A stretch of DNA of 34,121 nt from Candidatus Woesearchaeota archaeon (GTDB taxonomy: Archaea; Nanobdellota; Nanobdellia; SCGC-AAA011-G17; ARS1403). The stretch is taken from NCBI GenBank assembly GCA_018302505.1, contig JAGVZL010000014.1, positions 1 through 34,121 of the forward strand, given 5' to 3'. This document shows positions 2-34,121 of this stretch, one piece after another (within the stretch, counting starts at the first letter, position 1; the number at the start of each line of letters is the position of its first letter). The position numbers and the translations under genes are program-made. The notes below the pieces were generated by a model that did not search any database, was not told the DNA's origin, and was given only the letters and a program-made list of their open reading frames with translations.

Positions 2-1474
2 AGTAACAGCTCAGCTCTTTCAGTTCCGTGGCTCAATATAACTTCAGGAGGCACAGATGCTAAGTTCATCATAGACACAGCAGGCAACGTCGGCATCGGG
101 ACAACGGCACCTGTTGAAAAATTGATGATAACAATTGCAGATAGCGGAACTACATGGGCAAATTATGACGGTATTAGGATTTATAATACTGACACCACAA
201 CTAATGCAGGAGGTAGACTAGTTTTTAACTTAGGAGACTCTGGGACAGCTCAAGCTGGAATAGCTGGTGTAATCGTAGCTTCGTCAGATTCGGCTTTGGC
301 GTTTATTACAGAGGACTCAGATACAATTACAGAAAAAATGAGGATTACAGAAACAGGCAACGTCGGCATCGGCACGACGGATCCAGCAGATTTGTTAGTA
401 GTTCAAAACTCAAACAAGGCAAATATCTCGCTCGCCCCATCAGGCAATAATGCAATAATCCGTATGGATTATATTACTGGCAATGATGCAATTATTATGT
501 TCAGAGAAAATAGTATAGAAAAAGGGCGTATTGCATATGTTGGAGACACAAAAGAACTTCGATTGATTTCCTCTGAAGCGGAATCAATATTGACTCTCCA
601 TTCCAACAACACCGAAAGAATAAGAATTAATGCAGCGGGCAACGTCGGCATCGGCACGACGAGCCCAGGGGCTTTACTAGAAATTGTGGATGGAGATGTT
701 AATATAACAAATGGCACTGGCGATTGGGGAATGATTTTTGATGAAGCTACTGGATTTGTAGGTATGGGGTATAGTATAAATGATAATTGGGCTCAATTGA
801 ATGGACCTTTAAGCATTTTTGCTTCAGGAGATAATGGTTCTAGTGCTATAAGAATTCAAACTAATGATGCAACTGGTGAACATAGTGGAATTGGATTCTA
901 TACAGCTTCTCTTCCAGGACAATCTTTTCCACTAGGTTTAGTTGGTTTAGAAAAAACATCAGACACAGGCCAACATTCAGGGGATTTAGTATTCTATACA
1001 AGACCCGGCACAACTAATGTAGCTCCTATAGAAAGAATGAGAATAACTTCAGGAGGCGACATCTGCGACCCGGCAACTGACGCAGATTTATCAGACTGCG
1101 CTTCAGATGCAAGATTAAAAACAAACATTCAAGATTATCAATACGGCTTAAATGAAATCTTGCAACTAAGACCGGTAAATTTCAACTGGAACCAGAAAGC
1201 AGTTTCAGAGCTGAGCTACAATCCAAATTTAACAAACACAGGTCTAATAGCCCAGGAAGTAGAACAAATAATCCCGGAGTGGGTAGAAACAAAAGAAGAC
1301 GGCTATAAAAAAATCCCGGGCTCAGGAGATTTGGATTTAGTCTTGGTTAATGCCGTCAAGGAGCTCAACTCAAAAATCTCGGCACTGGAACAGCAGAATA
1401 ATGAACTCAAGGCTGAAATCTCAGCACTAAAAGAGCCTTCTTTAGAAAAGAACCCTCGGGAAAAAAAGAAATAA
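2..1474 (+). CDS. Tail-fibre-like surface protein with C-terminal S74 self-cleaving chaperone domain (5' partial)
   Basis: The frame is open to the left edge, so the gene starts outside the window; the first in-window ATG (125) is internal. The visible part has beta-rich repeats, each ending in a GNVGIGTT motif (near 83, 356 and 638), as in phage tail fibres and bacterial/archaeal fibre proteins. The C-terminal ~120 residues form a Peptidase_S74 (intramolecular chaperone) domain: the catalytic Ser-Asp-x-Arg-Leu-Lys motif has its Ser at 1103-1105 and Lys at 1118-1120, followed by the typical GLNEILQLRPVNFNWN and GLIAQEVEQIIPEWV segments and a final coiled coil (about 1350-1440). In this family the chaperone helps trimerise the fibre and then cuts itself off just before the Ser. 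The role is inferred to be an extracellular adhesin or virus-derived fibre. The domain call is firm and the biological role is not. Confidence 0.88.
   Translation, partial: SNSSALSVPWLNITSGGTDAKFIIDTAGNVGIGTTAPVEKLMITIADSGTTWANYDGIRIYNTDTTTNAGGRLVFNLGDSGTAQAGIAGVIVASSDSALAFITEDSDTITEKMRITETGNVGIGTTDPADLLVVQNSNKANISLAPSGNNAIIRMDYITGNDAIIMFRENSIEKGRIAYVGDTKELRLISSEAESILTLHSNNTERIRINAAGNVGIGTTSPGALLEIVDGDVNITNGTGDWGMIFDEATGFVGMGYSINDNWAQLNGPLSIFASGDNGSSAIRIQTNDATGEHSGIGFYTASLPGQSFPLGLVGLEKTSDTGQHSGDLVFYTRPGTTNVAPIERMRITSGGDICDPATDADLSDCASDARLKTNIQDYQYGLNEILQLRPVNFNWNQKAVSELSYNPNLTNTGLIAQEVEQIIPEWVETKEDGYKKIPGSGDLDLVLVNAVKELNSKISALEQQNNELKAEISALKEPSLEKNPREKKK
83..661 (+). repeat. Three near-identical 24-base repeats encoding GNVGIGTT
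   Basis: Copies lie at 83-106, 356-379 and 638-661. The second and third are identical over 24 bases and the first differs at two. They are GC-rich (core GGCAACGTCGGCATCGG) in an AT-rich gene, so conservation is at DNA level, not only protein level. Intervening sequences are unrelated in length and content. Confidence 0.9.
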
Positions 1475-11242: not shown

Positions 11243-11693
11243 CTGCATTTTTTGTAAAATAGTAAGGGGAGAAATACCTTCTCATAAAATATGGGAAGAT
11301 AAGAATCATCTAGCCCTCCTTACAATATTCCCAAACACAGAGGGTTTTTCAATAGTTATCCAAAAAAAACATTACCCAAGTTACCTATTTGATTTGCCTG
11401 ACAAAGTAATAACGGATTTAATCTTAGCTGCAAAAAAGGTCGCAAAATTATTAGATTCAAAATTAGAAGATGTTGGAAGAACCGGAATGATATTTGAAGG
11501 ATTTGGAGTTGACCATATTCACGCAAAACTATTTCCAATGCACGGCACTGTAGATATGAAAGAATGGAAACCACTAAAATCAAATGTGGATAAATACTTT
11601 AAAAAATATGAAGGTTATATCTCATCGCATGATTATAAAAGAGAAGATGATAAAAAATTAGCAAAGCTGGCTGAAAAGATTAGGAAAAATTAA
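11235..11693 (+). CDS. HIT family nucleotide-binding protein
   Basis: 152 residues. N-terminal CIFCKIVRGEIPSHKIWED with a CxxC (Cys4, Cys7) as in zinc-binding HIT proteins; the histidine triad region is GVDHIHAKLFPMHG. His94 and the expected catalytic His96 are present, while the third triad position is Lys98 instead of His, a variant known in archaeal HIT proteins. Predicted nucleotidyl hydrolase or transferase. Overlaps the HAD gene and ends convergent (4-base overlap) with lgt. Confidence 0.88.
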   Translation: MNDCIFCKIVRGEIPSHKIWEDKNHLALLTIFPNTEGFSIVIQKKHYPSYLFDLPDKVITDLILAAKKVAKLLDSKLEDVGRTGMIFEGFGVDHIHAKLFPMHGTVDMKEWKPLKSNVDKYFKKYEGYISSHDYKREDDKKLAKLAEKIRKN

Positions 11694-12442
11694 GCAGTTA
11701 TTCTTTTATTTTTATATAAAAAATATCCTCCAGCAAGAATCATTATTAAGCTAAAATACTGTCCATCACTTAATCCTAACCACTTAGGATCTTCTCTCAA
11801 AAAGCTAATTAAAAATCTGGTAACTCCCATAAGCAAAACAAATACAAAAAGCAAAACACCTTCTTTTTTCTCAGTTTTTCTAAAGAATAATAAAACTCCA
11901 AAGATTAAAAAGTTTGCTAGAGATTCGTACAACTGAGAAGGATGTCTGCAGCCTAAAATATCCTTAAAATTAACGCACCATGAAACATCTGTGACCGTTC
12001 CATATAACTCACCGTTGATGAAATTAGCAATCCTTCCTATAGCTAAAAATAAAGCAGCGGGAACAACTAAAATATCTCCTAATTTTTTCCATGAAACATT
12101 ATTCTTTCTAACAAAATAAAAAGTGGATAAAATAGCTCCGGTTAAACCGCCATGAAAAGCAACTCCACCTTCCCATAGAGCGAATATCTTAAAGGGATTG
12201 GCAAAATAATAGCCAGGGTCTGAAAACAAAACATGAAACAGTCTAGCACCAATTACAATACTCAAAATCAAATAGACCATATAATTCTCTAATTCTTCTC
12301 TGGAAACATTTAATTTATCCTTAGATTTAATAATAAAATAATAAGTAACTAAAAAACCAAAAGCCCAAGCCAGTCCATAGTATCTTATCTGAAAGTTCCA
12401 TAAATAAAAGAGTACAGGATCTAAATTATGTACAAATGGCAT
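11690..12442 (-). CDS. lgt: Prolipoprotein diacylglyceryl transferase, bacterial type
   Basis: 250 residues, about seven membrane segments. Family landmarks are intact: YYGLAWAFGF near the N-terminus, GARLFHVLF, EGGVAFHGGLTGA (conserved His), the signature LAIGRIANFINGELYG, HPSQLYES, and the final GVTRFLISFLRED. In bacteria Lgt attaches a diacylglyceryl group to the lipobox Cys of secreted lipoproteins. The gene next upstream on the same strand encodes a protein with just such a lipobox. Lgt is rare in archaea, whose lipids are ether-linked, so the substrate lipid here is an open question. It has its own TATA box. Confidence 0.93.
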   Translation of the reverse strand: MPFVHNLDPVLFYLWNFQIRYYGLAWAFGFLVTYYFIIKSKDKLNVSREELENYMVYLILSIVIGARLFHVLFSDPGYYFANPFKIFALWEGGVAFHGGLTGAILSTFYFVRKNNVSWKKLGDILVVPAALFLAIGRIANFINGELYGTVTDVSWCVNFKDILGCRHPSQLYESLANFLIFGVLLFFRKTEKKEGVLLFVFVLLMGVTRFLISFLREDPKWLGLSDGQYFSLIMILAGGYFLYKNKRITA

Positions 12443-18454: not shown

Positions 18455-18918
18455 TTATCAAAAAAAATTCTTGAAGGTGAAGATTTATGTTGTCTGGAAT
18501 GTTTTTCTACAGACCTAATCATAAGTTCTAAAAGATAATCTCTATGGGTAAGTTCACATCTTATAATGTCCTCAAAATTATCTACTTCTCTACCCCTAAT
18601 CGCATCATTAACCTCTTTCCTTTTTAGTAGCAATGATTTAGAGATTAAATCCCAATCTTGAACGTTGTATAATTGTAAAATAAAACAAGTGTATCCATTA
18701 TAAGGTACAACCCTCGCCATATTAAAAGCAAATTCTCTTATAGGATCGCTGGTATCATCGGCAACATAATCAAAGATTGCCCTTTCACGCAAATAATCAT
18801 AAGAATCTGTAAGTCTCTCAATATCATTACTCCCCGTAGCGAGCGCATGTGGATGAGCCAAAGCAAGTATTGCATGAGGCATATAAATTTCATCTATAAC
18901 AGGTTTTAAGTAACTCAT
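18451..18918 (-). CDS. Hypothetical protein coupled to TFB, 155 aa
   Basis: I do not recognise a family. The ATG overlaps the TFB stop (ATGA at 18915-18918), so it is translated from the TFB transcript. The protein is soluble, helix-rich and has several histidines (PHAILALAHPHALATG, LTHRDYLL, EKHSRQHK) and acidic/Arg residues (YDYLRERAIFDYVADDTSDP). It is less Lys-rich than its neighbours. Its 3' end overlaps the RNase Z stop by 4 bases, tail to tail. Coupling to a transcription factor hints at a transcription or stress role, but this is only context. Confidence 0.7.
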   Translation of the reverse strand: MSYLKPVIDEIYMPHAILALAHPHALATGSNDIERLTDSYDYLRERAIFDYVADDTSDPIREFAFNMARVVPYNGYTCFILQLYNVQDWDLISKSLLLKRKEVNDAIRGREVDNFEDIIRCELTHRDYLLELMIRSVEKHSRQHKSSPSRIFFDN

Positions 18919-21377
18919 TTTCTTTTCTTCTTTACTTTCTCATCTAATTTTAATTTCTTCAAAAGTTCTTTGTATCTATTTCTAATAGTAACTTCAGTCA
19001 CACCAGCAACATCCGCAACTTCCCTTTGGGTTCTTTTCTCATTATTTATTAAAGCAGCTACATATAAAGAAGCAGCAGCAATCCCAGTTGGACCTCTTCC
19101 TGAAGTTAATTCTGAATTCTGAGCTTTCTCTAATATTTCAACAGCCTTAGTTTGAGTATCTGCGCTTAATTTCAAAGAAGTTGCAAATCTGGCAATATAA
19201 TCCACAGGATTGCTAGGTAAAATCCTAATTCCTAATTCTCTTGTAATAAACCTATAGGTTCTTCCAATTTCTTTCTTATCAATACCACTAGCTTCACTTA
19301 ATTCATCCAAAGTTCTTGGAACTTCATGTCTCCTGCATGCGGCATATAATGCTCCAGCTACAACAGATTCCATTGACCTCCCTCTAACTAATCCTCTTTG
19401 AACAGCTAAAGTATAAATTCTAGCGGATTCTTCTTCAACAGCTTTTGTTAATTTTAAATAGCTGGAAACTCTTTTTAATTCAGCTAAAGCTAATTTTAAA
19501 TTTCTCTCAATAGCAGTTGAAATTCTATATTGCCATTTTCTTAATCTGAAGAATCTATTTCTGTCTTTTCCGCCTAATTGATAAATATCAGATTTTCTTC
19601 CAACATCAGTTCCTAATCCTCTATCATATTTAGTGTTGTGCAAAAATATTCCGCCCATTCCTCCGACAAAATTTTCATATCCAGGAACAGTTAAGTCATA
19701 AGCGTATCCAGTGCTTGATTTCATTTTTTTAATGCCTCTAACTCTCAAATATAGAAATGGCGCTTTAGCGATTTTCATTAATTTTTCATCACCATACTTT
19801 TCAGCTATTTTCAAAGCAGATTTCCTATCGATCCTTATCCTATCTCTAAATTTCCATTCTTTCTTATATATCTGCGGAGCAGGTATTAATGTCTCAATAG
19901 CTCCCTTGCCTTTAACCTCGCTTGGTTTATCTTTCAAAAAACCAAGATCATATGCGGTATCGGGATTCTTAATCAAAGCCCTCTTAGAAACAGTATCAGA
20001 AATTCTCTGCCCAGTTTTTTCCATAACTCTTCCCTTAATAAATGCTTCTTGGTAGTTTGCATGCATCCCAAGCTGTGAATATAATAATATGAAATCATTA
20101 GTCAAATCCCCGCTGGCAGAATTAGTTGAAATGCAAACATCAGGTCTAAATCCTTCATGCTCTATAATCACTTTGCCGCCATCTCCATCCAGATAAGCCA
20201 TTAAAAATTCTTTTTTAAATTCCATAGGAACTGAATAAATTATTTCTGGAATTCTCTTTGTTATAGCATTAGAACCTGTTTTTAAAATATCTCTGAATAG
20301 AATACTTAAAAGCTTGCTGTTAAACTGTATCTGTGTAGCTGAAGTGTTTTTTGCATAAACATTGTCGCTAACTTTAAATAAATTTTTGGTTATCCTTCTG
20401 ATTTCATCAATATATTCAACTTCGTGGCTTCCAAAGGAGAATACTAAATGATTATCTCTAGCAGTGCCCTCTGCTATAAACAAACCTAGAAGTCTAATAA
20501 AATCTTTATCAATGTTAATTTTTAGAGGCAACTCAGATTTTCCGCTATAAATGCCTATTTTGCAGTTATTTAAATTGTAATCATATATATTTATTTGTCT
20601 GGAAAACTCATTAAGTACCCATAAAGGAATAGTTTTGTAATGTCTCCAACTTTTGATTCTGCCTTTTAAAATATCATTGCTATTTTCTAGCAATTTCAGT
20701 TTCTCAAAGAGTTTTTCATCTGAAAAATTCCTTAAATATAATAATGGATATTTTTTTCCTAAAATTATAAACTCATCCAATAAATTTAATTCCCTAATAT
20801 CTTCAATTGTGGGTATCTCTTTTGGAGCAACAATAAAATCTCCTTCCTTTAGTTCACTTACTCTAACCGGCTTTATTTCCTTATCGGCGCTAAATACACT
20901 GTGATTTCCGGTAACCTTGACTTTTTTTCCAGTCTCCAGTAAAATTTCAAATACTTCATCAGCAGGATGTCTAGAAACTTCGCTTATTTTTCTAAATTTA
21001 ATTTCATTATTTTTATCAAAGGCAACACATTCAAAATCTTCAACAGGAGCGTATTCAATATCCTCATCAATTCTAATAAAACTATTTCTCTCAGCTAATA
21101 TATCATCAACAAATTTTCCAATTTTAACAATACTAATCTTATTATTCCTCTTAATCACAATAGGCTCTTCTGCATCTACACTATAGGTCATAGGACTTCC
21201 TGTCCTTCTTCTAGAAGCAGCTTGCTCATGGTCAAATTCTCTCCATTCCTGACCGAAGTCTATCATCTTCTCTTCGATAACTAAACCGCAATCCTTACAT
21301 ACTATCTCACCCCTGTCTTTGTTCAGTAAAAGATTGATACTTCCACAATCCGGGCACTTTTTGACGTATGTCGGCAT
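18915..21377 (-). CDS. tfb: Transcription initiation factor TFB with an intein
   Basis: 820 residues as translated. The N-terminal extein (1-65) holds the zinc ribbon (Cys8, Cys11, Cys27, Cys30) and B-reader linker ending SRRRTGSPMTY. The intein is residues 66-581. The C-terminal extein (582-820) resumes TKYDRGLGTDVG and contains two cyclin repeats (ESARIYTLAVQRGLVRGRS and GRGPTGIAAASLYVAALI) plus the recognition helix TQREVADVAGVTEVTIRNRY. Splicing would give a normal 304-residue TFB joining Tyr65 to Thr582. TFB recruits RNA polymerase to TBP-bound promoters and contacts the BRE. Expression of functional TFB thus depends on protein splicing. Confidence 0.96.
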   Translation of the reverse strand: MPTYVKKCPDCGSINLLLNKDRGEIVCKDCGLVIEEKMIDFGQEWREFDHEQAASRRRTGSPMTYSVDAEEPIVIKRNNKISIVKIGKFVDDILAERNSFIRIDEDIEYAPVEDFECVAFDKNNEIKFRKISEVSRHPADEVFEILLETGKKVKVTGNHSVFSADKEIKPVRVSELKEGDFIVAPKEIPTIEDIRELNLLDEFIILGKKYPLLYLRNFSDEKLFEKLKLLENSNDILKGRIKSWRHYKTIPLWVLNEFSRQINIYDYNLNNCKIGIYSGKSELPLKINIDKDFIRLLGLFIAEGTARDNHLVFSFGSHEVEYIDEIRRITKNLFKVSDNVYAKNTSATQIQFNSKLLSILFRDILKTGSNAITKRIPEIIYSVPMEFKKEFLMAYLDGDGGKVIIEHEGFRPDVCISTNSASGDLTNDFILLYSQLGMHANYQEAFIKGRVMEKTGQRISDTVSKRALIKNPDTAYDLGFLKDKPSEVKGKGAIETLIPAPQIYKKEWKFRDRIRIDRKSALKIAEKYGDEKLMKIAKAPFLYLRVRGIKKMKSSTGYAYDLTVPGYENFVGGMGGIFLHNTKYDRGLGTDVGRKSDIYQLGGKDRNRFFRLRKWQYRISTAIERNLKLALAELKRVSSYLKLTKAVEEESARIYTLAVQRGLVRGRSMESVVAGALYAACRRHEVPRTLDELSEASGIDKKEIGRTYRFITRELGIRILPSNPVDYIARFATSLKLSADTQTKAVEILEKAQNSELTSGRGPTGIAAASLYVAALINNEKRTQREVADVAGVTEVTIRNRYKELLKKLKLDEKVKKKRK
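19635..21182 (-). other. Intein with LAGLIDADG homing endonuclease inside TFB
   Basis: 516 residues, from Ser66 (SVDAEEPIVIK, block A) to Asn581 (GGIFLHN, blocks F/G), with Thr as +1 residue. Block B is VTGNHSVFS (His159). Two dodecapeptide motifs, LLGLFIAEG (~296-304) and LMAYLDGDG (~392-400), keep their acidic catalytic residues, so the endonuclease may be active. Boundaries follow from the terminal motifs and from the continuous TFB sequence left after removal. Confidence 0.95.
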
Positions 21378-23415: not shown

Positions 23416-24183
23416 TTAAAGCATATCTCCCACATATTTCTCAACTAAGATTAATAAATAAACTCTAAACCAAGTTAAAAATAATAAAAATACAAAACCA
23501 TTTACTAATTTCAAACCAACTAAACTAAGTAAACTCCCTATAAAAAATAAAATCAATAAAAAAATAAGAAAGGGAAATAGTAATTGAGGGTTTTTGATTC
23601 CTAAAAGAAAACATTCTTTAAAAGATTTCAAAGATTTATTGGATAAGCTAAATAAAGCAAAAGATATAACTCCAAAATAAACAAATAATAACAAAGGTAT
23701 GTTCAAAATAAAGATACTAAAAGTCTGTAACAATGAAGAATTATTATAAAATATATAAATACTCAATCCTAAAATTAAAGTCCAAATTAAGCTAAATAAA
23801 GCAAAATCCAATAAATAATCCAAATCAAATTTTTTAGATCTTTTAACTATATTTCTGCTTATCAGCCAGCTAACACTTTGAAATAAGCTCCATAATAAAA
23901 AGGCAACAAGGAAGAATTCTAATACAATAAATAGCATATTAATTAAAGTATCAGAAACACCTGATAACCTTGAAAATAAATCTCCAGATATTTGACCATC
24001 TTGAACAAGAATATTTTCTAGAGTGTTACCGATATAATCATAATCTCTCATGAATAAATTATAAAAAAAAGAAGCAGAAATTATAAGCAAAACTAAAAAC
24101 AAAAAATCAAAAAGAGAACAAATTAGCCATTTCTTCTTATTCTCACTTAACAGCAAAAAACTTTTTTTTAATTCTCTTAACAT
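23416..24183 (-). CDS. Polytopic membrane protein at the end of the surface operon
   Basis: 255 residues, about six transmembrane helices (~20-42, 83-107, 125-148, 152-176, 196-218, 222-246), with a short outside loop after the first helix (NTLENILVQDGQISGDLF). No catalytic motif seen; no family recognised. It starts nine bases after the 1032-residue secreted protein gene and is the last gene of the cluster, so it may serve as a membrane platform or export helper for the surface proteins, by context only. Confidence 0.7.
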   Translation of the reverse strand: MLRELKKSFLLLSENKKKWLICSLFDFLFLVLLIISASFFYNLFMRDYDYIGNTLENILVQDGQISGDLFSRLSGVSDTLINMLFIVLEFFLVAFLLWSLFQSVSWLISRNIVKRSKKFDLDYLLDFALFSLIWTLILGLSIYIFYNNSSLLQTFSIFILNIPLLLFVYFGVISFALFSLSNKSLKSFKECFLLGIKNPQLLFPFLIFLLILFFIGSLLSLVGLKLVNGFVFLLFLTWFRVYLLILVEKYVGDML

Positions 24184-24192
24184 CTTTCAAAA

Positions 24193-27100
24193 TTATCCTG
24201 AAACACATGCTCCAGACAAACATGTCCTTCCATCTAATTGACAATTTAATGTAGAACTTACACATGACCCATCCCTGCATTCAAAATCGCTAGCTACATT
24301 CTCGTTACAAGAATCCTTATGAACTCCAGCAACTCCAGCAGCATCTATACATATCCCCCCAATTCTAAAATCATCCCTGTCATCACTATCGATGCATCTT
24401 TCTTTAACTTCATTGTAAATTACAATCTTTTTAGTAACTTCAGATAATACTCCTTCTTCATCTCTGCAAATATCATAGCCAATCAATCCCTCAGGTACAA
24501 CCAATTGAACAGTTAAATCATAAACTCCACTAATCGGGGCATCGTTAGCTTCTGGAATTTCCCAAACTCCAAATGTTACTCCGCTAACTGCTTGAGAATA
24601 TGGTATTTCAAATGGACCTTCATATGTAGATCTAGGTCCACCAGTTATTTCAACAAGGACTAATAAATCCTCAGTGTTGACATTCACAGTTCCGCTTAAA
24701 ACATTTAATGAATCCACGCCTACACTAATTGTTTCTCCAGGAATATAGATTCTATCAAGCCCTTGAACGCCTTCTAAAATATCTCCTCCTACGAGTCTAA
24801 TTCCACCAAAAGAAGCATAACAACTGCTTCTGGTATCTAAAACACTTCCATCAAGTTTTCCATTTGCGATATTAGGATGTGTATTCTCTAAATATTCTTG
24901 ATAATTATTAAACTTATCCCCATCAGGATCTTCACTGCCATCATTAACTCTCCCCCCATCAGTATTGGAATTAAGAGGGTCTAAAACATTGGATTTTCCG
25001 GCTTGTAGTAAATCCTTGCATGCTTTTTCATCCTGAGCATTGGAAAATTCTCCTCTATTTTGATAACAACTAAATCTAATCTCCCAATCATCTGGCAACC
25101 TATCATTATCTGAATCTTTCACCCCTTCTTTAAATAATTCGAGATCCTCATTTATCCCACCAGTACTTCCTTTTCCAGGTGGATAACATCTAATTCTGCT
25201 AACCCCTTCTTTTAAATCAAAGCATAATTTTGTATATTCTAATTCATCAGTTACCTGAATAAAATCAGAATTAAAGTCGCCTATATTCCTCAAAACATCA
25301 CTATGGATAGGTCTTCTTGAACCTTGGTCGCTTTCTAAATAAACATCATATCTTAAACTCTCTCTGCCAGAAACTACCATCCAGCTTATGTCATATCCAT
25401 AAACAGGAACTCCGCCTTCACCAAAGAAAGCAACTTTATAATTAAAATTAGAAGAAGTCGTTGTTTTTATAGGAGCATTAGCTAGTTCAGAAGATTGTAA
25501 CGAATTGAAATTAGGAAAATCACGATATAACGCTAAAGAACAAAGAGTGCTTGCCAATAAATGACTTTGATAACCTAAGTTTCCCTTAATATCTGCAGAG
25601 CCTAAAACTGCAACTTCATTCTTTGCAAACTCTCTGGCATTTCTTGTTCCGCTATTTAATCCCTTAATAATAAAATTATTTCTCAAAATTCCGCCGGCCT
25701 CTACAGCTTCCTCTCCAGAAGACTTTTTAGGTTCATTAGTATTGCTATTAAAACCGAAGAAAGACCCAAAATCAAACTTACCGACATACTGCAGTTCATC
25801 TATAATAAAGGTACATACTCCATTACTTAAAACTCGATCACATTCTCCAACATATTGCCCTGTTGTTTTAGCCTCCAATAAACAAGTTTTCCATTGTAAA
25901 GCAATAGCCTCAATTTGATAAAGCTTGGCTAACATCCCGCTAACACAACCACAGGTCGTACTCAAAAATAAACTATCTTGTATAGGTTTAGGGCTAGGTT
26001 GTCCAGTAATAAGATCTTTGCCTATTGTTAACTCAGCCAGACTTTTACTTCCTTCTTTTGGATGCCAGTTTAAAGGTCTACACCAATCTCTGGGGCATGC
26101 CACAGCACTACACATAGACCTTCCGCTTATAATAAAACTTTCCTTATACAAACCAAAATTTCTTAGTTCCTCAGGACCAAACCAGATAAAATTAACAGCA
26201 TCATCAACTCCAGGAATAAAACTAAATATTTTCCCTCCAAGTACGATTGAAATTGCACCTAAACAATTGCCTCTCAAAAATTCATACAAATTCCTCAATT
26301 TTGGTTCTAAAGCTTCTGTAAAATCAAGAACCTTATCTGCACTTTCCATTCCCGCAATTAAAAATGCCTCTGGTGGTTTATATGCCAAACTATCTAATGA
26401 AATTATCAATGGAAATTCTTCCTCTTCCGGAGGATAGATTGGAATACAATTATTGCTTCTAACTCTTACCCCGTTCTCATCTTTTATCAATCTCCTACAT
26501 TGATTAATTCTTGCTGTGCATTCAAATTCAATTTCATCAATTCCATATTCTCCTTTATAATTTCTAATATCTTTAGGCCTAACCAAAGATTCATCACTCT
26601 GATAATTTAATCTTATTTCTAAAGTCCTATTCATATCAGTATTTCCGACTCCGGATAAACTAACACTGCCATAACTCCCTTCAATATAGGTAACGCCGTT
26701 CCTTGATTGAACATTTAACTCTCCACCATTTTGACCGCTATCAAAAACTAAATCTCCAACTCCTATTTCTTTAGTTCTAATAACTCCTCTGTCATTAGTA
26801 CAATAAACAGTAGCCCCTCTAAATTCAATATCCTCATTTTCAAGAACATTAAACGTATTTCTAAAGAAACTGATAGGCTGATAAACTTTAACACCCTGTC
26901 TTTGATCAGTAAGCCAATTAGGTTCTACAACTCTTGGTCTAGCATCGTTAGTATCAATTCTAATCCCCCAATAATTGCTAAATCCTGCAGTTTGACTTGG
27001 ACTACATCCAGAATCATCGCCTCTGCGGCTAGCAACTTCTCCACTAGGAGTTCCAGCACATAAATCTCCTAAAATAGTCGCCGTACATCCAAGATCTATA

Positions 27101-27291
27101 CTTCTTACATCCCCATCTCTATAAATATTACTTGGTTCATCACAAATACCGTCTCCATCAGAATCATATCGTGAGCTTGTAAACACCCTATCAGTTCCGC
27201 CAGCAGTGTCGCCTTCAATAACCGTGCTCTGAGCATAAGAGATACTAATAAACATTAAAAATATAATCCCTAATAATATCACCCTTTTCAT
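24193..27291 (-). CDS. Large secreted protein with Ca-binding-type repeats and Cys-rich tail
   Basis: 1032 residues. Cleavable signal peptide (1-20, ...FMFISISYA). Just after it lies DSDGDGICDEP (thrombospondin type 3-like, calcium-binding pattern); another pair occurs near 740-800 (DSDNDRLPDDWE and EDPDGDKFNNYQEYLE). The middle holds a region with many paired cysteines (MCSAVACPRDWCRP, TTCGCVSGML). A beta-sandwich-like part precedes a Cys-rich C-terminus (DSCNENVASDFECRDGSC). No membrane anchor at the C-terminus. Two bases after the upstream pilin-like gene, so co-expressed. Likely an extracellular structural or adhesive protein stabilised by disulfides. Confidence 0.8.
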   Translation of the reverse strand: MKRVILLGIIFLMFISISYAQSTVIEGDTAGGTDRVFTSSRYDSDGDGICDEPSNIYRDGDVRSIDLGCTATILGDLCAGTPSGEVASRRGDDSGCSPSQTAGFSNYWGIRIDTNDARPRVVEPNWLTDQRQGVKVYQPISFFRNTFNVLENEDIEFRGATVYCTNDRGVIRTKEIGVGDLVFDSGQNGGELNVQSRNGVTYIEGSYGSVSLSGVGNTDMNRTLEIRLNYQSDESLVRPKDIRNYKGEYGIDEIEFECTARINQCRRLIKDENGVRVRSNNCIPIYPPEEEEFPLIISLDSLAYKPPEAFLIAGMESADKVLDFTEALEPKLRNLYEFLRGNCLGAISIVLGGKIFSFIPGVDDAVNFIWFGPEELRNFGLYKESFIISGRSMCSAVACPRDWCRPLNWHPKEGSKSLAELTIGKDLITGQPSPKPIQDSLFLSTTCGCVSGMLAKLYQIEAIALQWKTCLLEAKTTGQYVGECDRVLSNGVCTFIIDELQYVGKFDFGSFFGFNSNTNEPKKSSGEEAVEAGGILRNNFIIKGLNSGTRNAREFAKNEVAVLGSADIKGNLGYQSHLLASTLCSLALYRDFPNFNSLQSSELANAPIKTTTSSNFNYKVAFFGEGGVPVYGYDISWMVVSGRESLRYDVYLESDQGSRRPIHSDVLRNIGDFNSDFIQVTDELEYTKLCFDLKEGVSRIRCYPPGKGSTGGINEDLELFKEGVKDSDNDRLPDDWEIRFSCYQNRGEFSNAQDEKACKDLLQAGKSNVLDPLNSNTDGGRVNDGSEDPDGDKFNNYQEYLENTHPNIANGKLDGSVLDTRSSCYASFGGIRLVGGDILEGVQGLDRIYIPGETISVGVDSLNVLSGTVNVNTEDLLVLVEITGGPRSTYEGPFEIPYSQAVSGVTFGVWEIPEANDAPISGVYDLTVQLVVPEGLIGYDICRDEEGVLSEVTKKIVIYNEVKERCIDSDDRDDFRIGGICIDAAGVAGVHKDSCNENVASDFECRDGSCVSSTLNCQLDGRTCLSGACVSG

Positions 27292-27293
27292 TT

Positions 27294-29240
27294 TTAGCTA
27301 AACCTCGGTTCAAGCAAATCTCTATTTCTGTTTACAGCGTCTCCCATCTCATAAGCCCTCAACACATCACTTACAACTCTTGGATTAACCGCAAAAGCTG
27401 TAAATTCTATGTTATCATTTTCTAATTGCTCAGGGCTTATATATACATCATCTAATTCAATATGACCTAAAACTATTGTATCGGCTGATTTAGATTCAAA
27501 TCCATTGACATTTTGACCAGCTAGAGTTAATTGTTCGTTTAAAACCAAGTCCAAATTAAGATTATACCTTCCAGGAGCTAACCTTAAAACAACTTCTTCA
27601 CCACTATTATAATTAACAGCAATCTCATCATCCACACCGCCAAATATTTCATTTATTTTTATTAGCTGTAAAAATACTTCTTCATTTATATTAAGACTCC
27701 TTCCAAGTTCGCTTACGACATTATCATTTTGATCTAAATCAATCACTTTAACATTTAAAGTTAAATTACGATAAGGTTCAATATCCGCAATAACGCTTTG
27801 TACACCTGTGTCTAAAGTATCTAAAGATTGTCTATAAACGCCATATCCATCTCCATCAACCCTTAATTCTCCGCCAACACATAACGGGAAGCTCCCTCTA
27901 TATTCTATGGCCCCATATTCATTTTCAGTAGTTTCTCCAACGATACATTCATTAAGTCCACAAATATAAGAAACTTTAAGCCCATCAACAAATTCTCCAT
28001 TAGATGTATCAATAGCACTAACGCTGACTTCTTCACTTAATCTTTGATCTTCATCACAAAATAAATTTCCTGGTCCGCTTCTGAAATCAGTTGTTCCAAA
28101 AGCATTTCTCCTTCCATAATTATTATCAACAAATACCTCAATAACAAAATTAAAAGATTCCATTCCGGATTCTAGACTAACAAGAACAGGATAAATTAAA
28201 TCATATCTGAAGTTATGTCTATTAAAACAAATATCAGGCCTCAAAGGGATAGGTATCTTCAAAACGTCAGAAGTTAAAACAGGTCCTCTTCTTGGAGTAA
28301 CATCCATAACAAAAGGCCACCCAGCATAATAATTAAAATTAACGTTTACATCATTATGACTTCTTGAGAAAGTATTATCAATTACCATATGGTTATTATA
28401 ATAAACTTCATCATAAGTTTGGATATTGCTCCCTTCAACCTGTAGATAGGGAGTCATAACCTCTATATTTCTTATAAGGGTTTCTCCAACCTCCACTAAA
28501 TTATACCTGGATTTGCTGCAATCGAAATCAATTCCTGCAATTTGAGGAATCCCACTATTATCATCTTTACTCCAAAGAGAAACAAGTTCTATTGTATTAT
28601 CTTCCAAAGGAGAATTAAGTCTTTCTCTGTTAATTATTTCATTAGCCATTTCATAAAATTCATTTAATCTGCTTGGAATTGAAACTTTTACATATCTACT
28701 CAAATCAAAATTATCTTCTTTAATCCCAACTTGTAGATTAGTATTTAAATTAACTTCAACATCTTTATCTAGAATATTAACATTAATGTCAATAGTATCT
28801 TCAGGAATATTATAACCTATGTCTCTGTAAGAATCAAACCCACAATCAGATACAAATCTTGATTCGATATAAGCTCCCAACTCATTTTCCATTTCCTCAA
28901 TCGTGGGAATATTCTCTAAGTTATCTTCTCCATAAAGCCAATAAGGAACTTTTCTATTTTCTGTAACTTCTAAATAAGTTCTTGGACTTATATCCGGGAA
29001 CACAACATACCCACCTTGTTCCCCTATTAGTTTTAAACCATCTGAAGCGATATTCTCAACACACCCTTCCACATAATTTACAACACCTTGAGCTTGTTCA
29101 GGAACAACAACGCTTCTAAAAGCAATATTTTGAACTCTCTCTCTAAAATTCTCACTTTGTAAATAGCTAATAGAAATTGCTAAAATAACTACAATAATTC
29201 CTAAAATAATGAATACTGTTACTTGACCCTTTTTTTTCAT
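27294..29240 (-). CDS. Large pilin-like surface protein with class III signal peptide
   Basis: 648 residues. N-terminus MKKKG/QVTVFIILGIIVVILA has the Lys-Gly processing site and hydrophobic helix of type IV pilin-like precursors (prepilin peptidase cut after Gly). The large ectodomain (~35-648) is rich in beta and Asn/Asp, with scattered cysteines and a carboxypeptidase-like repeat feel in RPDICFNRHNFRYDLIYPV and ADIEPYRNLTLNVKVIDL. Far larger than usual pilins (~120-200), suggesting a tip or minor subunit. It begins one base after the stop of a 39-residue ORF, whose coding end supplies a GGTGAAAGG ribosome site. Confidence 0.8.
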   Translation of the reverse strand: MKKKGQVTVFIILGIIVVILAISISYLQSENFRERVQNIAFRSVVVPEQAQGVVNYVEGCVENIASDGLKLIGEQGGYVVFPDISPRTYLEVTENRKVPYWLYGEDNLENIPTIEEMENELGAYIESRFVSDCGFDSYRDIGYNIPEDTIDINVNILDKDVEVNLNTNLQVGIKEDNFDLSRYVKVSIPSRLNEFYEMANEIINRERLNSPLEDNTIELVSLWSKDDNSGIPQIAGIDFDCSKSRYNLVEVGETLIRNIEVMTPYLQVEGSNIQTYDEVYYNNHMVIDNTFSRSHNDVNVNFNYYAGWPFVMDVTPRRGPVLTSDVLKIPIPLRPDICFNRHNFRYDLIYPVLVSLESGMESFNFVIEVFVDNNYGRRNAFGTTDFRSGPGNLFCDEDQRLSEEVSVSAIDTSNGEFVDGLKVSYICGLNECIVGETTENEYGAIEYRGSFPLCVGGELRVDGDGYGVYRQSLDTLDTGVQSVIADIEPYRNLTLNVKVIDLDQNDNVVSELGRSLNINEEVFLQLIKINEIFGGVDDEIAVNYNSGEEVVLRLAPGRYNLNLDLVLNEQLTLAGQNVNGFESKSADTIVLGHIELDDVYISPEQLENDNIEFTAFAVNPRVVSDVLRAYEMGDAVNRNRDLLEPRFS

Positions 29241-29241
29241 T

Positions 29242-29361
29242 TTAACCTTTCACCTTCTTTCTAATAAGTTCTATAATCTCAGTATTCAAATCTTTATTAA
29301 TCTTGGACTTGAAATTCTCCCATAATCTCTCATCTTCGATAAGAAGAAGGTATTTTTTCAT
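29242..29361 (-). CDS. 39-residue ribbon-helix-helix-like protein
   Basis: Too short for most gene callers: MKKYLLLIEDERLWENFKSK then INKDLNTEIIELIRKKVKG. A short strand followed by two helices with LWxxFK and an ELIRKKV second helix fits the minimal ribbon-helix-helix DNA-binding unit. It begins ~25 bases after a TATA box and ends one base before the 648-residue pilin-like gene. So it is the first gene of a transcript that carries the large surface genes, and may autoregulate it. Fold is inferred from pattern. Confidence 0.6.
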   Translation of the reverse strand: MKKYLLLIEDERLWENFKSKINKDLNTEIIELIRKKVKG

Positions 29362-29380
29362 ATACCATCAAACAGTAGTT

Positions 29381-29393
29381 TTAATATATAAAT
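29381..29393 (-). promoter_or_regulatory. TATA box splitting the surface cluster
   Basis: TTTATATATTAA on the minus strand, centred ~26 bases from the ATG at 29361, gives a leaderless promoter for the RHH, 648-aa, 1032-aa and membrane protein genes, separate from the four upstream pilin genes. Confidence 0.55.
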
Positions 29394-29397
29394 GTTT

Positions 29398-29426
29398 CTT
29401 ACTAACTTACTTAGTTACTTACTAAG
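29398..29426. repeat. Tandem-like TTAGTAAG/TAAGTAAC stretch at a pilin stop codon
   Basis: On the minus strand the pilin gene ends in TAG TAA, and the sequence continues as variations of TAAGTAAC/TAAGTTAG with several in-frame stops within 25 bases. Low-complexity spacer between the two transcription units; could also serve as a stop-safe transcript end. Confidence 0.5.
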
Positions 29427-29889
29427 AACATAATTTAAGTTCAAAATTATAATTTCTCGGCAGTCTGACTGGGCTTGCAGTAATTCCTTCATCACAAACA
29501 CCATTAAACAGTTCAATATAAGTAATCGTATCTAAAGAACCTTTGAATTGATAGATTTCTATTTCTGATAAAGTTGCTTTAAATATATCAGTTAGATCCT
29601 TTTCGACAGCTACGCAAATATCAGATTTAATTTTTTGAGGTGGGGGGTTTGGATTTAATTTAGTAGGATTATCCAAACAGTCTTTCATTAATTCTTTTAA
29701 ACTGGTTTTATCAAGATAGTCTAAATTAACATCCATTATAGCATTCATTAAATTATTAGCTCTAAAACTACTTCTCAATGTAACACTGGAATCATCACTT
29801 TGTTTGATTCTAACAAAGAAAATTAATGCGAATATTAACAAAATAACTATAAATATTAATCCAAAAATTTCTGCCTGTCCTTTTTTCAT
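29422..29889 (-). CDS. Pilin-like protein (class III signal peptide), 155 aa
   Basis: N-terminus MKKG/QAEIFGLIFIVILLIF, with cut site after Gly4 and a hydrophobic helix ~5-26. The ectodomain includes RANNLMNAIMDVNLDYLDK, a Pro-rich NPNPPPQK turn and cysteines near DCLDN, DICVA, GVCDE and the C-terminal LCS. Size fits a pilin subunit. Its ATG shares one base with the stop of the preceding gene, so the two are tightly coupled. No assembly ATPase or peptidase is within the window. Confidence 0.8.
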   Translation of the reverse strand: MKKGQAEIFGLIFIVILLIFALIFFVRIKQSDDSSVTLRSSFRANNLMNAIMDVNLDYLDKTSLKELMKDCLDNPTKLNPNPPPQKIKSDICVAVEKDLTDIFKATLSEIEIYQFKGSLDTITYIELFNGVCDEGITASPVRLPRNYNFELKLCS

Positions 29890-30407
29890 TATTCAACCTC
29901 TCCAATTATTATTAGCTTTCCTATCCTGTATATATTATCTGAAGGGTAATAAATTGAAACAGGAGTTGCATATCTCAACCCGTCACCAGTATATCCCATT
30001 AAAGTAAATTTATTACAATCAATACTTGTAACATCGCATTCTCTAGGAGTTACGGTAGGATAAACAACTTCAACTTCCAATCCTAAAATCCCAAATTCAT
30101 CTAAATACTTATCTTTTATATTCCCATTATTAGTTAATACTTCTCTAAAAGCTATTAATTTTTTGGCATCCAAACATTCTCTTTCAATTCCTCTTACGCT
30201 ACATTTAATTTCTGGAGCACTAGTTAAAGAATTAACTAAAGTAGAAAATTTCTCATCTAAAATTTCTTGTCTACTTTCTTTAATGGTAGTATAAGTAAAT
30301 TGGAAATAAACAACCAAAGCAACAATCAATAAAATAAAAAACACTAATAAAACCATCATGGTTATCCCAATTTCTAATTGTCCTTTCTTTAATAAATTCC
30401 TTCGCAT
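29889..30407 (-). CDS. Pilin-like protein (class III signal peptide), 172 aa
   Basis: N-terminus MRRNLLKKG/QLEIGITMMVLL and a hydrophobic helix to ~32. The ectodomain carries SRQEILDEKFSTLVNSL (amphipathic helix following the membrane segment, usual in pilins) and then beta strands with paired cysteines (IKCSVRGIERECLDAKK, PRECDVTSIDCNKFT). Overlaps the upstream gene by 19 bases and the downstream by one base. Confidence 0.8.
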   Translation of the reverse strand: MRRNLLKKGQLEIGITMMVLLVFFILLIVALVVYFQFTYTTIKESRQEILDEKFSTLVNSLTSAPEIKCSVRGIERECLDAKKLIAFREVLTNNGNIKDKYLDEFGILGLEVEVVYPTVTPRECDVTSIDCNKFTLMGYTGDGLRYATPVSIYYPSDNIYRIGKLIIIGEVE

Positions 30408-31267
30408 CCTTCCCTCAAAAGTCCTTCATTGGCAGTAATTAATTCATTTACTTGTTCAGGTAAATTCTTTATAGCATCTATCGCTGCCTGTCTAAAACTG
30501 CATCCATATCCAATTCCATCAGCTTTCTTAAGGTACACTTTCCTAATGTTTTCATATTTTTTTAAAGCAACATGATTAGTTAAACAAAAGAAATTACTTG
30601 TATCAGAAAAAATATAAGCATAAATCATTGCATTACCATAAAAATCTCTATCAGTTCCGCCATCGCATAATTTTCCATAATACTCTCCATTAATCTGTCC
30701 TTCATAAAAAACTTTTTTCTTATTACCATTCACATTATCAGAACAATCAACAAGATTCACAGAATCTAAATCTATAAATTGAATGGTTTCATCGCTACCT
30801 ATAAACATTTCAGGAATCTTATTTATTTCGTCAGGAGCATCCTCAAGATAAAAAAATTTATCATTCCCTGTTATAAAGATAAAATTAGTAATCCTAAATG
30901 GAGCATTCCAGCCATATGTAAAAAATTTAAATTCATTATCCTTCATACCTTCAGGAGCAAAAACTATATTACCTTTTAGTTTTTTACCTGCCACCCCATT
31001 AACAAACATCCTTTCTTCATTTAAAGTACTAGGATCGCATTTAAACTCTAATTTTATCTCTTTGCCAAATTCTAACTTGCTTCCAACTAAATTGCTTTTA
31101 AATCCAGTAAATGCAATATCTAATTCCTCCACAGCAACTTTTGCAGTTAAATTTCCAAATAAATCAGTTTGTTGAACAGCGAACCAAACTAAAAATAAAA
31201 ATATAGATATACCGGCAATTATCGAAAACAACCAGCTAAAAGATATTTCAAAACCTTTTTTATTCAT
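30389..31267 (-). CDS. Pilin-like protein (class III signal peptide), 292 aa
   Basis: N-terminus MNKKG/FEISFSWLFSIIAGIS, hydrophobic to ~28. Ectodomain of ~260 residues, rich in Phe/Tyr and Gly, with cysteines around EFKCDP, LVDCSDN, KLCDGG, FFCLTN, GCSFRQ and the C-terminal GCEGIY. One base after the preceding gene; overlaps the next by 19. Likely a minor pilin or linked surface subunit. Confidence 0.78.
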   Translation of the reverse strand: MNKKGFEISFSWLFSIIAGISIFLFLVWFAVQQTDLFGNLTAKVAVEELDIAFTGFKSNLVGSKLEFGKEIKLEFKCDPSTLNEERMFVNGVAGKKLKGNIVFAPEGMKDNEFKFFTYGWNAPFRITNFIFITGNDKFFYLEDAPDEINKIPEMFIGSDETIQFIDLDSVNLVDCSDNVNGNKKKVFYEGQINGEYYGKLCDGGTDRDFYGNAMIYAYIFSDTSNFFCLTNHVALKKYENIRKVYLKKADGIGYGCSFRQAAIDAIKNLPEQVNELITANEGLLREGCEGIY

Positions 31268-31268
31268 T

Positions 31269-31730
31269 TTATTGACTAATCAAAACTCCTTCATTTCCTC
31301 TATTTTCAAATCTTATTTCAACTCTATCATTTCTAACAGTAGCACAAGTAGGATTATTATTTTCTACAAAAAATCTAGTAGCATTAAATCTATTTTCCCT
31401 GAATTCGGTTACAGGAAAAACAAAAACATTGCTAAATTCTTTCAAAGATTCCATATAATCATCCGGGTCAACATTATAAGTTGGATTTATAAAACAAACT
31501 CGAGTAACTTCGCTAGGTAGAATAAAATCTTCTCTGCCGCTGCTCCCAATATCTAAAAAATAAAAATCATTTATTTTCTTTTCTAAATTTTTATAAAAAT
31601 CAATTAATAGGACTTCATCTTTAAAATCTTCGCCTTGTCTAACAGTTTTAATTCCAAAAAATAAAACGGTTACCGCTAAGATTAATATAAATATCCATGT
31701 AAAAATCTGCTGCATCTGTCCGTTTTTCAT
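31269..31730 (-). CDS. Pilin-like protein (class III signal peptide), 153 aa
   Basis: N-terminus MKNG/QMQQIFTWIFILILAV with hydrophobic helix to ~26. The ectodomain (IKTVRQGEDFKDEVLLIDFY, VTRVCFINPTYNVDPDDY, PTCATVRNDRVEIRFENRG) has two cysteines that could form one disulfide, and ends in a beta strand. Starts five bases after the large Cys-rich gene. Confidence 0.78.
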   Translation of the reverse strand: MKNGQMQQIFTWIFILILAVTVLFFGIKTVRQGEDFKDEVLLIDFYKNLEKKINDFYFLDIGSSGREDFILPSEVTRVCFINPTYNVDPDDYMESLKEFSNVFVFPVTEFRENRFNATRFFVENNNPTCATVRNDRVEIRFENRGNEGVLISQ

Positions 31731-31735
31731 TTTTT

Positions 31736-34121
31736 TTAGACATTAATCTTCACTATATTAGGCATAACATTGCCCCAATTATCTCTACACTGAGTATAGT
31801 AGCTTGAACTTGTAACAACTAAATGTTTTCTATTATTTTCTGTCCTGCTTAAATCATTACCAAGATTAATATTATTAGTTGTAGATAATTTGCATATTGC
31901 CTCTTCATTTGTTCTAATATATTTAGTCCCGCCTGTTGTAATTATCTGGACTATTTGAGGAGGAGTAATATCTCTTGAAACAGCGAAGTTAATAGTATTA
32001 GTAAGTGTTTCAGCTCCATCACCGCAGCTTATAGTTATTGTCTTAGCGCCATTGCTAATTCCGCTAACAGTGGCTGTATGGATGTAAATGTTTGTATTAT
32101 CAAATGCCCTTGTTAAACTTCCGCTCAAGCTTCCTGAATAAGTACATTGCACATTCGCTCCATTATTAGCTCCTCCGGCAGTCTTAGCGCTAATTGTAAA
32201 GCTATCGCTTCCTTGTGTTTCACTAGGCTTAGTTTCAACAATTCTTAACCTATTTGATTGAGGAACATTAATTCTAAAGTTAATCTCTTGTAAAGCAATA
32301 CTATTTCCAGCCTCATCTCCGCATCTTACATAAAATGTATAATCATCATTGCCTCTAACTAAATTCTCTTTTGTATATCTAATGCTTGGAACTCCACTAA
32401 CCCTGACTTCCTGATGTGTATCCATAATTTGGTTGTTAAATGCGCCCGCTACTACATCATCTGTTTCCATTAAATTATCATAATTCTCGCTCCAATAGCA
32501 GGTAGCAGCACCATTTCCTGTTTGTCCGCCTGTTAATGTAATCTCTAAATCAAAAGCATAATCAGTTAGTGTCCCACTTGGACCTTTGCTTTGCACAACT
32601 AAATTTCCTGCAGTTATGCCTTCAGGTCCTTCTCCAGGTTCTTCTTCAAGTCCGCTTATTAATAAAGTGTTCAACAAACCACTTTCTATATTTTGTGCTT
32701 TAACATAGTAAGCGTTATTAGGACTAAACCCGTCATTCAATCTTACAGCAGTCCATCTGATAATTGTAACATTCTCTATACTAAATGTAATTCCAGTTGA
32801 AGGCACGACAACATCATCTGGTTGAGCTAAATCAATTCCTGCAATTGCATCTTTTTCTAATATTTCATAGCTTATAGCATTTCCAACCTCGCAGCTTTCT
32901 CCTCTTATAACTGCGATTGCTTCGCTTCCTTGTCTTATGCTCTGTAATGATGCTCCGCTTTGTTCATCTTTCCATTCAATAGAAGTTATTCTGCATTCTT
33001 GAGGATCAGGTTCAGTAATGCCTGCTCCACCATCACCTCCAGCTCCGGTTACAGTTGTGCTTCCTGCAGATACAGCAAAGTAAAACGGTTTTTGTGCAAA
33101 TGCTCCTTGTCTATCCTCAACTCTAGCCACTAAAACATAATCCCCATTTCTAGCATCATCAGGAACTCTCCAGCTAAATTCATTTTGTAAATTTCCGACT
33201 CTTAAGAATTGGGCAGAAACATCTTCATTCTCATTTCTTATTGTATAAACTAAATTAGCATTATCTCCAGCATCTTCATCGTTAGCAACAATTCTTACAT
33301 TAATTACTTCCCCTTTATTATATACATATTTATCAAGTTGTATATTTGATATAGTTGGATTCCTATTAGTAACTCCTTCTTGTAAAACTATTAATCTCAA
33401 TTCCTTGCAGGCTCTATTGCTGCTCAAATCAGTAAAGCAGAAAGCAATAGTATAATCCCTCGGTGTCATTGACGCACTGTTTAACACAAATCTATAAGAA
33501 TTATCGCTAATTTTAGAAACAGAAGCGAATCTTCCTATTCTTGGTGTTTCGCTAAACGTATTCATACCAATACCTACTGGGCTTGTTGCAATAACGGTAA
33601 ATTCATATAAGTCTCCTCTATTCAAAGTTCTTTCACTATCTGGTTCAATAACTATTATAGGGGATTCATCCTGGCAAACTTTATTATTATCACTATCTCT
33701 TAATCCACTTAGACAATTATCTCTGCAAACATGAGTTGTAGTATCTTCTGCATCAACTAAATTCCATTCACAATTCAAACTTGGGTTTACACATAAATCT
33801 CTTGTTGTTAAAGTATTACAAGCGGTTGTAGTTCCAACTGCTTCACAAACCCCATCTCCATTATTATCTACAGTATTTGCTGGACAGTCAGCAACACATT
33901 GTGTTCCAAACCATTTACAATTTAAGTCCGAAGCAATACAATTACCTTGCCCTTGGTCAGTTAGGCTTGAACATGTTTGAGTAACAACTCCAGGCTCGCA
34001 AGTCTGTATTAAACTCGGAGAAGAAGTACTACAACTATTTGGATTAATACAAGTTCTAGTTATTTCACCATTAGTAGGACATTCTGCAGGGCTAAAACCA
34101 GTACATACCCATTCACAAACT
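31736..34121 (-). CDS. Large Cys-rich, Ig-like surface protein (5' partial)
   Basis: The frame stays open from the stop at 31736 to the window edge, at least ~795 residues; the TTG at 33778 is internal. The visible N-terminal part is a series of cysteine modules (NCKWFGTQC, DNNGDGVCEA, TTRDLCVNPSLNCEW, CRDNCLSGLRDSDNNKVCQD), followed by several Ig/cadherin-like beta domains (IVIEPDSERTLNRGDLYEFT; ISNIQLDKYVYNKGEVINV; TITLSCGD-like ends). The C-terminal domain is IVQIITTGGTKYIRTNEEA. The signal peptide is outside the window. Probably an extracellular adhesive or sheath protein, first in the pilin-like operon; disulfide-rich, consistent with the DsbA-like gene. Confidence 0.8.
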   Translation of the reverse strand, partial: VCEWVCTGFSPAECPTNGEITRTCINPNSCSTSSPSLIQTCEPGVVTQTCSSLTDQGQGNCIASDLNCKWFGTQCVADCPANTVDNNGDGVCEAVGTTTACNTLTTRDLCVNPSLNCEWNLVDAEDTTTHVCRDNCLSGLRDSDNNKVCQDESPIIVIEPDSERTLNRGDLYEFTVIATSPVGIGMNTFSETPRIGRFASVSKISDNSYRFVLNSASMTPRDYTIAFCFTDLSSNRACKELRLIVLQEGVTNRNPTISNIQLDKYVYNKGEVINVRIVANDEDAGDNANLVYTIRNENEDVSAQFLRVGNLQNEFSWRVPDDARNGDYVLVARVEDRQGAFAQKPFYFAVSAGSTTVTGAGGDGGAGITEPDPQECRITSIEWKDEQSGASLQSIRQGSEAIAVIRGESCEVGNAISYEILEKDAIAGIDLAQPDDVVVPSTGITFSIENVTIIRWTAVRLNDGFSPNNAYYVKAQNIESGLLNTLLISGLEEEPGEGPEGITAGNLVVQSKGPSGTLTDYAFDLEITLTGGQTGNGAATCYWSENYDNLMETDDVVAGAFNNQIMDTHQEVRVSGVPSIRYTKENLVRGNDDYTFYVRCGDEAGNSIALQEINFRINVPQSNRLRIVETKPSETQGSDSFTISAKTAGGANNGANVQCTYSGSLSGSLTRAFDNTNIYIHTATVSGISNGAKTITISCGDGAETLTNTINFAVSRDITPPQIVQIITTGGTKYIRTNEEAICKLSTTNNINLGNDLSRTENNRKHLVVTSSSYYTQCRDNWGNVMPNIVKINV

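Follow-up and report, generated by a model that had tools for sequence, protein, structure and literature searches.

The window analyzed here is the whole 34,121-nucleotide stretch of contig C38, which belongs to a draft woesearchaeal genome (G000; 868,772 bases in 58 contigs, 86% complete). ORF calls place eight minus-strand genes in it, spanning from 34120, at the contig end, down to 23416. Taken in that direction, the intergenic gaps are 5, 1, -19, -1, 181, 2, and 9 nt, and this spacing is operon-like. The features, in the same order, are as follows.

31736..34120, minus strand: sec794, secreted Cys-rich protein of at least 794 aa (ORF; N-terminus lost at the contig end)
31269..31730, minus strand: p153, prepilin-like, 153 aa, MKNG/Q (ORF and N-terminal motif)
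30389..31267, minus strand: p292, prepilin-like, 292 aa, MNKKG/F (ORF and N-terminal motif)
29889..30407, minus strand: p172, prepilin-like, 172 aa, ..LLKKG/Q (ORF and N-terminal motif)
29422..29889, minus strand: p155, prepilin-like, 155 aa, MKKG/Q (ORF and N-terminal motif)
29242..29392, minus strand: TATA-like element (about 29392) and a 39-codon ORF, both within the 181-nt gap that precedes p648 (sequence reading)
27294..29240, minus strand: p648, prepilin-like, 648 aa, MKKKG/Q (long helix at the N-terminus, followed by beta domains that form a stalk)
24193..27291, minus strand: sec1032, giant secreted Cys-rich protein, 1032 aa (Sec signal)
23416..24183, minus strand: memb255, polytopic membrane protein, 255 aa (about seven hydrophobic segments)

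From the element in the 181-nt gap, p648 may have a promoter of its own. The initial annotation had described five prepilin-like genes of 153 to 648 aa with Lys-Gly-type ends, and all five ORFs are there, consecutive on the minus strand, with such ends (KNG/Q in p153). As a count of the pilin-like proteins, five holds for the window, but a sixth, a short paralogue of p648, lies on another contig (C50). Similarly, the two giant secreted proteins both exist, but the size of about 800 aa given for one of them reflects truncation at the contig end, and a third secreted protein is encoded on C50. The large proteins are indeed Cys-rich, with 32 Cys in sec1032 and 28 in sec794, and the membrane protein placed beside them is polytopic (memb255, 23416-24183). 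No cluster protein of the window gave an above-cutoff match in Pfam or NCBIfam. A match to bindosome BasB (E = 0.08) and matches of the PSII/TatA type were rejected as hydrophobic-helix noise.

Elsewhere in the window, a TFB (TFIIB) gene (18915-21377, minus strand) contains an intein that matches LAGLIDADG weakly; in sister genomes, the homologous proteins have about 300 aa and no intein. A bacterial-type prolipoprotein diacylglyceryl transferase (LGT; 11690-12442, minus strand; E = 2e-63) is found here in an archaeal genome, adjoining a lipobox-bearing cupredoxin and a DsbA-like protein. At the contig start, there is an ORF that is open at its upstream end (2-1474, plus strand); its product has a Peptidase_S74 chaperone domain like those of tail spikes.

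Prepilin signals

Archaeal prepilin peptidases are reported to need G, A, or S at position -1 and a charged residue at -2 (PMC4371748). All five window proteins have archaeal prepilin ends, [KR]G/Q or F followed by a hydrophobic helix, and thus carry the class III signal (-1 G/A/S, charged -2, hydrophobic helix), with the exception of p153, which has Asn at -2 (KNG/Q). That exception is confined to the window, as motif-bearing p153 homologues carry Lys or Arg there. Among motif-bearing homologues generally, the -1 residue is G, A, or S, and Gln occupies +1 in 71/79 homologues of p648, in all 11 of p155, and in 17 of the 18 of the short p648 paralogue. As a background, 47 of 743 unrelated neighborhood ORFs were loosely class III-like, and a single one of the 743 had [KR][GAS]/Q before a helix. 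The conserved [KR][GAS]/Q motif is therefore far above background and more than chance. The same KG/Q type of site is carried by the Epd pilins of Methanococcus, which are cut by EppA, a likeness to archaeal type IV pili (PMC4371748).

Some of the small proteins are also related to one another. p153 matches the first 80 residues of p292 (hhalign, 93%), while p172 resembles p155 (96%) and one small prepilin of the C32-type locus described below (94%); shared hydrophobic helices inflate such scores. Homologues of p292 were found in 48/61 relatives.

Gene order in relatives

Within the same family, the order is short p648, a secreted protein of 620 to 705 aa, a giant secreted protein of 1440 to 1689 aa, p153, p292, p172, p155, p648, sec1032, and the membrane protein; some genomes have one additional gene within this series. 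The operon of sister genomes is thus longer than the window, with the short p648 paralogue and another secreted protein upstream. In the genome studied here, the short p648, the secreted protein, and the start of a third gene, that of the giant, are found on C50, where a 215-aa fragment aligns with the N-terminal end of the G006 giant protein (44%). The ends of C50 and C38 have no common sequence, so we infer their adjacency from synteny.

Other families of the order have the set at two places. The short p648, the giant secreted protein, and the small pilins lie together near an S-layer gene, and p648 and sec1032, sometimes with the membrane protein, occupy the second, where Lsm-like, eS8-like, and TFB-like genes are frequent neighbors. 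The S-layer-like gene adjoins the small-pilin block at L080 (16675-18951), L085 (3999-6251), and L082 (2008-4413), and PF05124 was confirmed in those of L080 and L085.

The search for this order in relatives, as the initial annotation proposed, bore out a conserved unit of pilin-like and giant secreted proteins: a sec1032-family gene lies directly downstream of the long p648 in 50/63 evaluable named loci. Homologues of memb255 come after sec1032 in many loci. Two loci have a composite gene ahead of p153 and p292: in one (L169), a single 1046-aa protein joins the short p648 domain to the giant secreted family, and in the other (L157), this domain continues into a long extension at the corresponding position (2225 aa). 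Because of this adjacency, fusion, and extension, the gene arrangement supports p648 and the giant secreted protein being physical partners.

The large prepilin and the giant secreted proteins

The p648 family is present in 60 of the 61 genomes of the relatives set and in 240/279 sampled genomes of the phylum (194/219 good ones), with many of the matches beyond the order being partial. Named matches from a contig scan, run with an 11-sequence alignment, are Woesearchaeota, Nanoarchaeota, and unclassified archaeal MAGs. Eight Cys of p648 are invariant in a 28-sequence alignment of the order.

The AlphaFold2 model of p648 is confident (mean pLDDT, 90; pTM, 0.60) and has a helix at residues 4 to 40, a break, and then mixed and beta domains. 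Foldseek matched it to multidomain surface proteins, SlaB of the S-layer and sortase pilins among them, but whole-chain TM scores were low, and no T4 pilin is among the matches listed; a p648 profile search against PDB gave no match. On the model, p648 has a pilin-like N-terminus, and the remainder looks like a stalk.

sec1032 carries an ordinary Sec-type signal, MKRVILLGIIFLMFISISYAQS, and its family has a conserved Cys core. Its model was poor (mean pLDDT, 63) and had no fold match at an E value of ≤0.001, so its function was not read from structure; a PDB profile search gave weak Ig-type surface-protein matches at most. Full-length homologues of sec794 in sister genomes are 1440 to 1689 aa long, and the window portion corresponds to their C-terminal part; its Ig-like Pfam matches are weak, under the cutoff or close to it. 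PilY1/PilC models of Pfam and NCBIfam did not match sec1032, sec794, or the sec1032 homologues.

Several small pilin-like proteins and one large one recall, in their layout, the sets of minor pseudopilins, and one might imagine a secretion or uptake pseudopilus, similar to that of type II secretion or competence, that carries DNA or the giant proteins through the envelope. We regard this as improbable. The giant proteins have, or should have, Sec signals of their own; an outer-membrane step is unnecessary in such archaea; and DNA-uptake genes were not found in the window.

Assembly machinery and prepilin peptidase

The statement of the initial annotation that no pilus ATPase is nearby is correct for the window, but two ATPase/TadC sets are encoded elsewhere in the genome, on C30 and C32, and the search for these genes and for a prepilin peptidase was successful on C30, C32, and C42. 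The C30 set has an ATPase with an apparent intein and two TadC proteins; this T4P-type ATPase (L006 5253-7433) reads as interrupted by the intein-like insert. The C32 set has an ATPase, a 702-aa double TadC, and prepilin-like genes. The peptidase (PF01478; G000:C42:654-1016) is the one found in this genome. A prepilin peptidase was found in 59/61 relatives, almost always in one copy and, in several genomes, 10 to 20 kb from the C32-type locus.

Which of the two sets might serve the pilins of the window? Classic TadC (PF00482), the platform of C30, was not found in 52 of the 279 phylum genomes, some of them near complete, and near-complete genomes without it nonetheless have strong p648 matches (for example, G094, G100, G103, and G110). 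Classic TadC is therefore disfavored as the machine for p648. The C32-type double TadC is present in 271/279 genomes, compared with 240/279 for p648; the distributions are compatible, although near-universal presence cannot prove use. The C32 type is the sole platform found here that is able to serve nearly all p648 genomes, and we infer that the pilin set uses it. In several genomes, p648 lies about 15 to 95 kb from the C32-type locus by coordinates, a closeness that is suggestive but explainable by housekeeping synteny. What links the pilin set of the window to the C32 machine is thus purely their distribution.

The same observations bear on a surface complex with no pilus, in which the helix of the pilin-like proteins is kept in the membrane or trimmed and the stalks hold the giant proteins at the S-layer. 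The Foldseek matches of p648 to Ig/CnaB stalks and to the S-layer anchor SlaB are as expected for such anchors, as are the PF05124 S-layer gene next to the small pilins in the two genomes tested and a locus without an ATPase. Weighing the other way, the three residues of the prepilin cleavage site are conserved despite only about 25% identity, and the peptidase and platform are near universal. We consider such an anchored complex possible but doubtful.

Murein-cutting domains in relatives

A Pfam scan found SLT domains in sec1032 homologues; neither sec1032 of the window nor the present part of sec794 has one. In the order, SLT was found in 33/61 genomes, and a hand tally places it at the giant partner or the machine locus in 23 of these 33. 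By coordinates checked by hand, it is within sec1032 or its immediate neighbor in 17 genomes, a few of them via contig-end synteny, and in 6 it belongs to a protein encoded where the run of prepilins at the C32-type locus ends. By eye, the N-terminus of these six proteins is clearly of class III in four, reads KKG/E in G008, and shows no such signal in L231. The G008 protein (L234 10756-12438) carries both SLT and Amidase_2. The position of SLT in sec1032 may be N-terminal, middle, or C-terminal, and this variation suggests that the domain has been repeatedly gained or shuffled.

Most of the SLT proteins inspected contain E-S...GLMQ or close variants, and several also contain AYNAGP; one SLT segment aligned to solved lytic transglycosylases (E value of about 1e-4). 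On two contigs (L236 and L241), SLT adjoins genes of archaeal type, a setting that speaks against contamination by bacteria. Within the genomes checked, SLT lies no more than 10 kb from p648 in 26; the binomial estimate for this proximity assumed a background of 5% and serves as an indication only. SLT was found in 131/240 genomes with p648 and in 2/39 without it (Fisher P = 1e-9), a lineage-confounded comparison in which the overlap was counted by hand; the association is inflated because genomes without p648 cluster in few families.

Archaea have no murein, and since these relatives carry murein-cutting domains all the same, some of them may target bacteria. The simplest reading is that the target in SLT-bearing relatives is probably bacterial murein. 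The domains might instead act on the cell's own glycans or in pilus assembly, as bacterial secretion systems use lytic transglycosylases to pass their own wall and GlcNAc is possible in archaeal glycans. This seems to us rather unlikely: an archaeal cell offers no murein of its own, one machine-locus protein also has Amidase_2, and the lack of an SLT match in 146 of the 279 phylum genomes implies that SLT is dispensable for assembly.

The only SLT match of the genome studied here is at C56 2894-3202 (L235 2780-3406), in a small stand-alone protein (about 208 aa) that lacks a prepilin motif. Given that its own giant proteins, in the parts present, lack SLT and that this sole match is a separate protein, adhesion is the safer claim for this organism, and it is, from the sequence, the most likely role of the cluster.

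DISCUSSION

We propose that the window contains a second, motorless prepilin locus, a module of minor pilins or of a tip, of a type IV pilus (T4P)-like machine found across the phylum. As a full explanation in four steps, we would give it an even chance. First, six prepilins (p153, p292, p172, p155, p648, and the short p648 on C50) would enter the membrane and, as suggested by their motif and by the presence of the enzyme, be cut before the hydrophobic helix by the peptidase of the genome. Second, they would be assembled by an ATPase/TadC set that is encoded elsewhere, most likely of the C32 type. Third, the long and short p648 would each bind the giant Cys-rich secreted protein encoded next to it and expose it at the cell exterior, in a tip or surface complex; given their pairing and the fusion, we imagine that p648 and the giant proteins work like minor pilins and PilY1. 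Finally, the giant proteins would bind partner cells, and in the many relatives in which they or the machine-locus proteins have murein-cutting domains, presumed to be active, the target would probably be the bacterial wall. Against the tip-module reading are p648 itself, which beyond its N-terminal helix is unlike a known T4 pilin, the lack of an ATPase at the locus, the Asn at -2 of p153, and the SLT-free sec1032 of the window.

Of the attachment or cell-fusion structure proposed in the initial annotation, the first part stands: the conserved unit of pilin-like and giant proteins most likely forms a structure for attachment or contact. Cell fusion found no support. Contact between a DPANN archaeon and its host had also been suggested, but an archaeal host is not specifically indicated, and the murein-cutting domains of relatives point to bacteria, at least there. 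One can envision, more tentatively, that much of the Nanoarchaeota/Woesearchaeota phylum has a pilus-like contact machine, with tips that can be fitted with murein hydrolases to dock on and breach bacterial walls, and that the window holds a noncutting version.

The cluster resembles archaeal T4P, as surveyed by Makarova et al. in 2016 (PMC4858521), in having several prepilins apart from the ATPase/TadC genes and extra large secreted components. It differs in that its proteins have no Pfam match to known pilin families and in the fixed pairing of a 648-aa stalked prepilin with a giant Cys-rich protein. With bacterial minor pilins and PilY1, as described in PMC7541494, it has in common a small pilin-like set with one large member and a big secreted protein in one operon. 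In contrast to the PilY1 tip complex described there, a location at the tip is suggested here by the arrangement of the genes, and no sequence relation to PilY1 was found.

In Castelle et al. 2021 (PMC8204110), giant proteins with transglycosylase domains (fam00969) are reported in Woesearchaeota and Pacearchaeota, and bacterial hosts are suggested. Like the sec1032 family, they are very large and extracellular, have a lytic transglycosylase domain, and occur in the same lineages. Set side by side by description, fam00969 probably overlaps the sec1032 family. sec1032 differs in being tied to a class III pilin-like gene and often lacking SLT, and SLT here also sits on machine-locus proteins. 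Vigneron et al. 2022 (PMC9723730) described "vampiristic" Woesearchaeota, for which lytic murein transglycosylases are proposed in the attack on bacteria, as would be the case for the SLT-bearing relatives here. By term search, the main text of Castelle et al. (PMC8204110) has no mention of pili or pilins, and that of Vigneron et al. (PMC9723730) has no pilus link. PMC12352652 deals with archaeal murein hydrolases that kill bacteria, and Jarett et al. 2018 discuss T4P genes in Nanoarchaeota. A term search of these four open-licence works gave no pilin-like operon joined to giant proteins; an earlier mention elsewhere is possible. Giant transglycosylase proteins have thus been noticed before, and their tie to a pilin-like machine is absent from the literature searched.

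The cluster offers a small, phylum-wide, and as yet unassigned gene set with which to test how DPANN archaea touch their partners. DPANN archaea of the Woesearchaeota type are widespread, and the recurring murein-cutting domains make it directly testable whether bacteria support some DPANN archaea.
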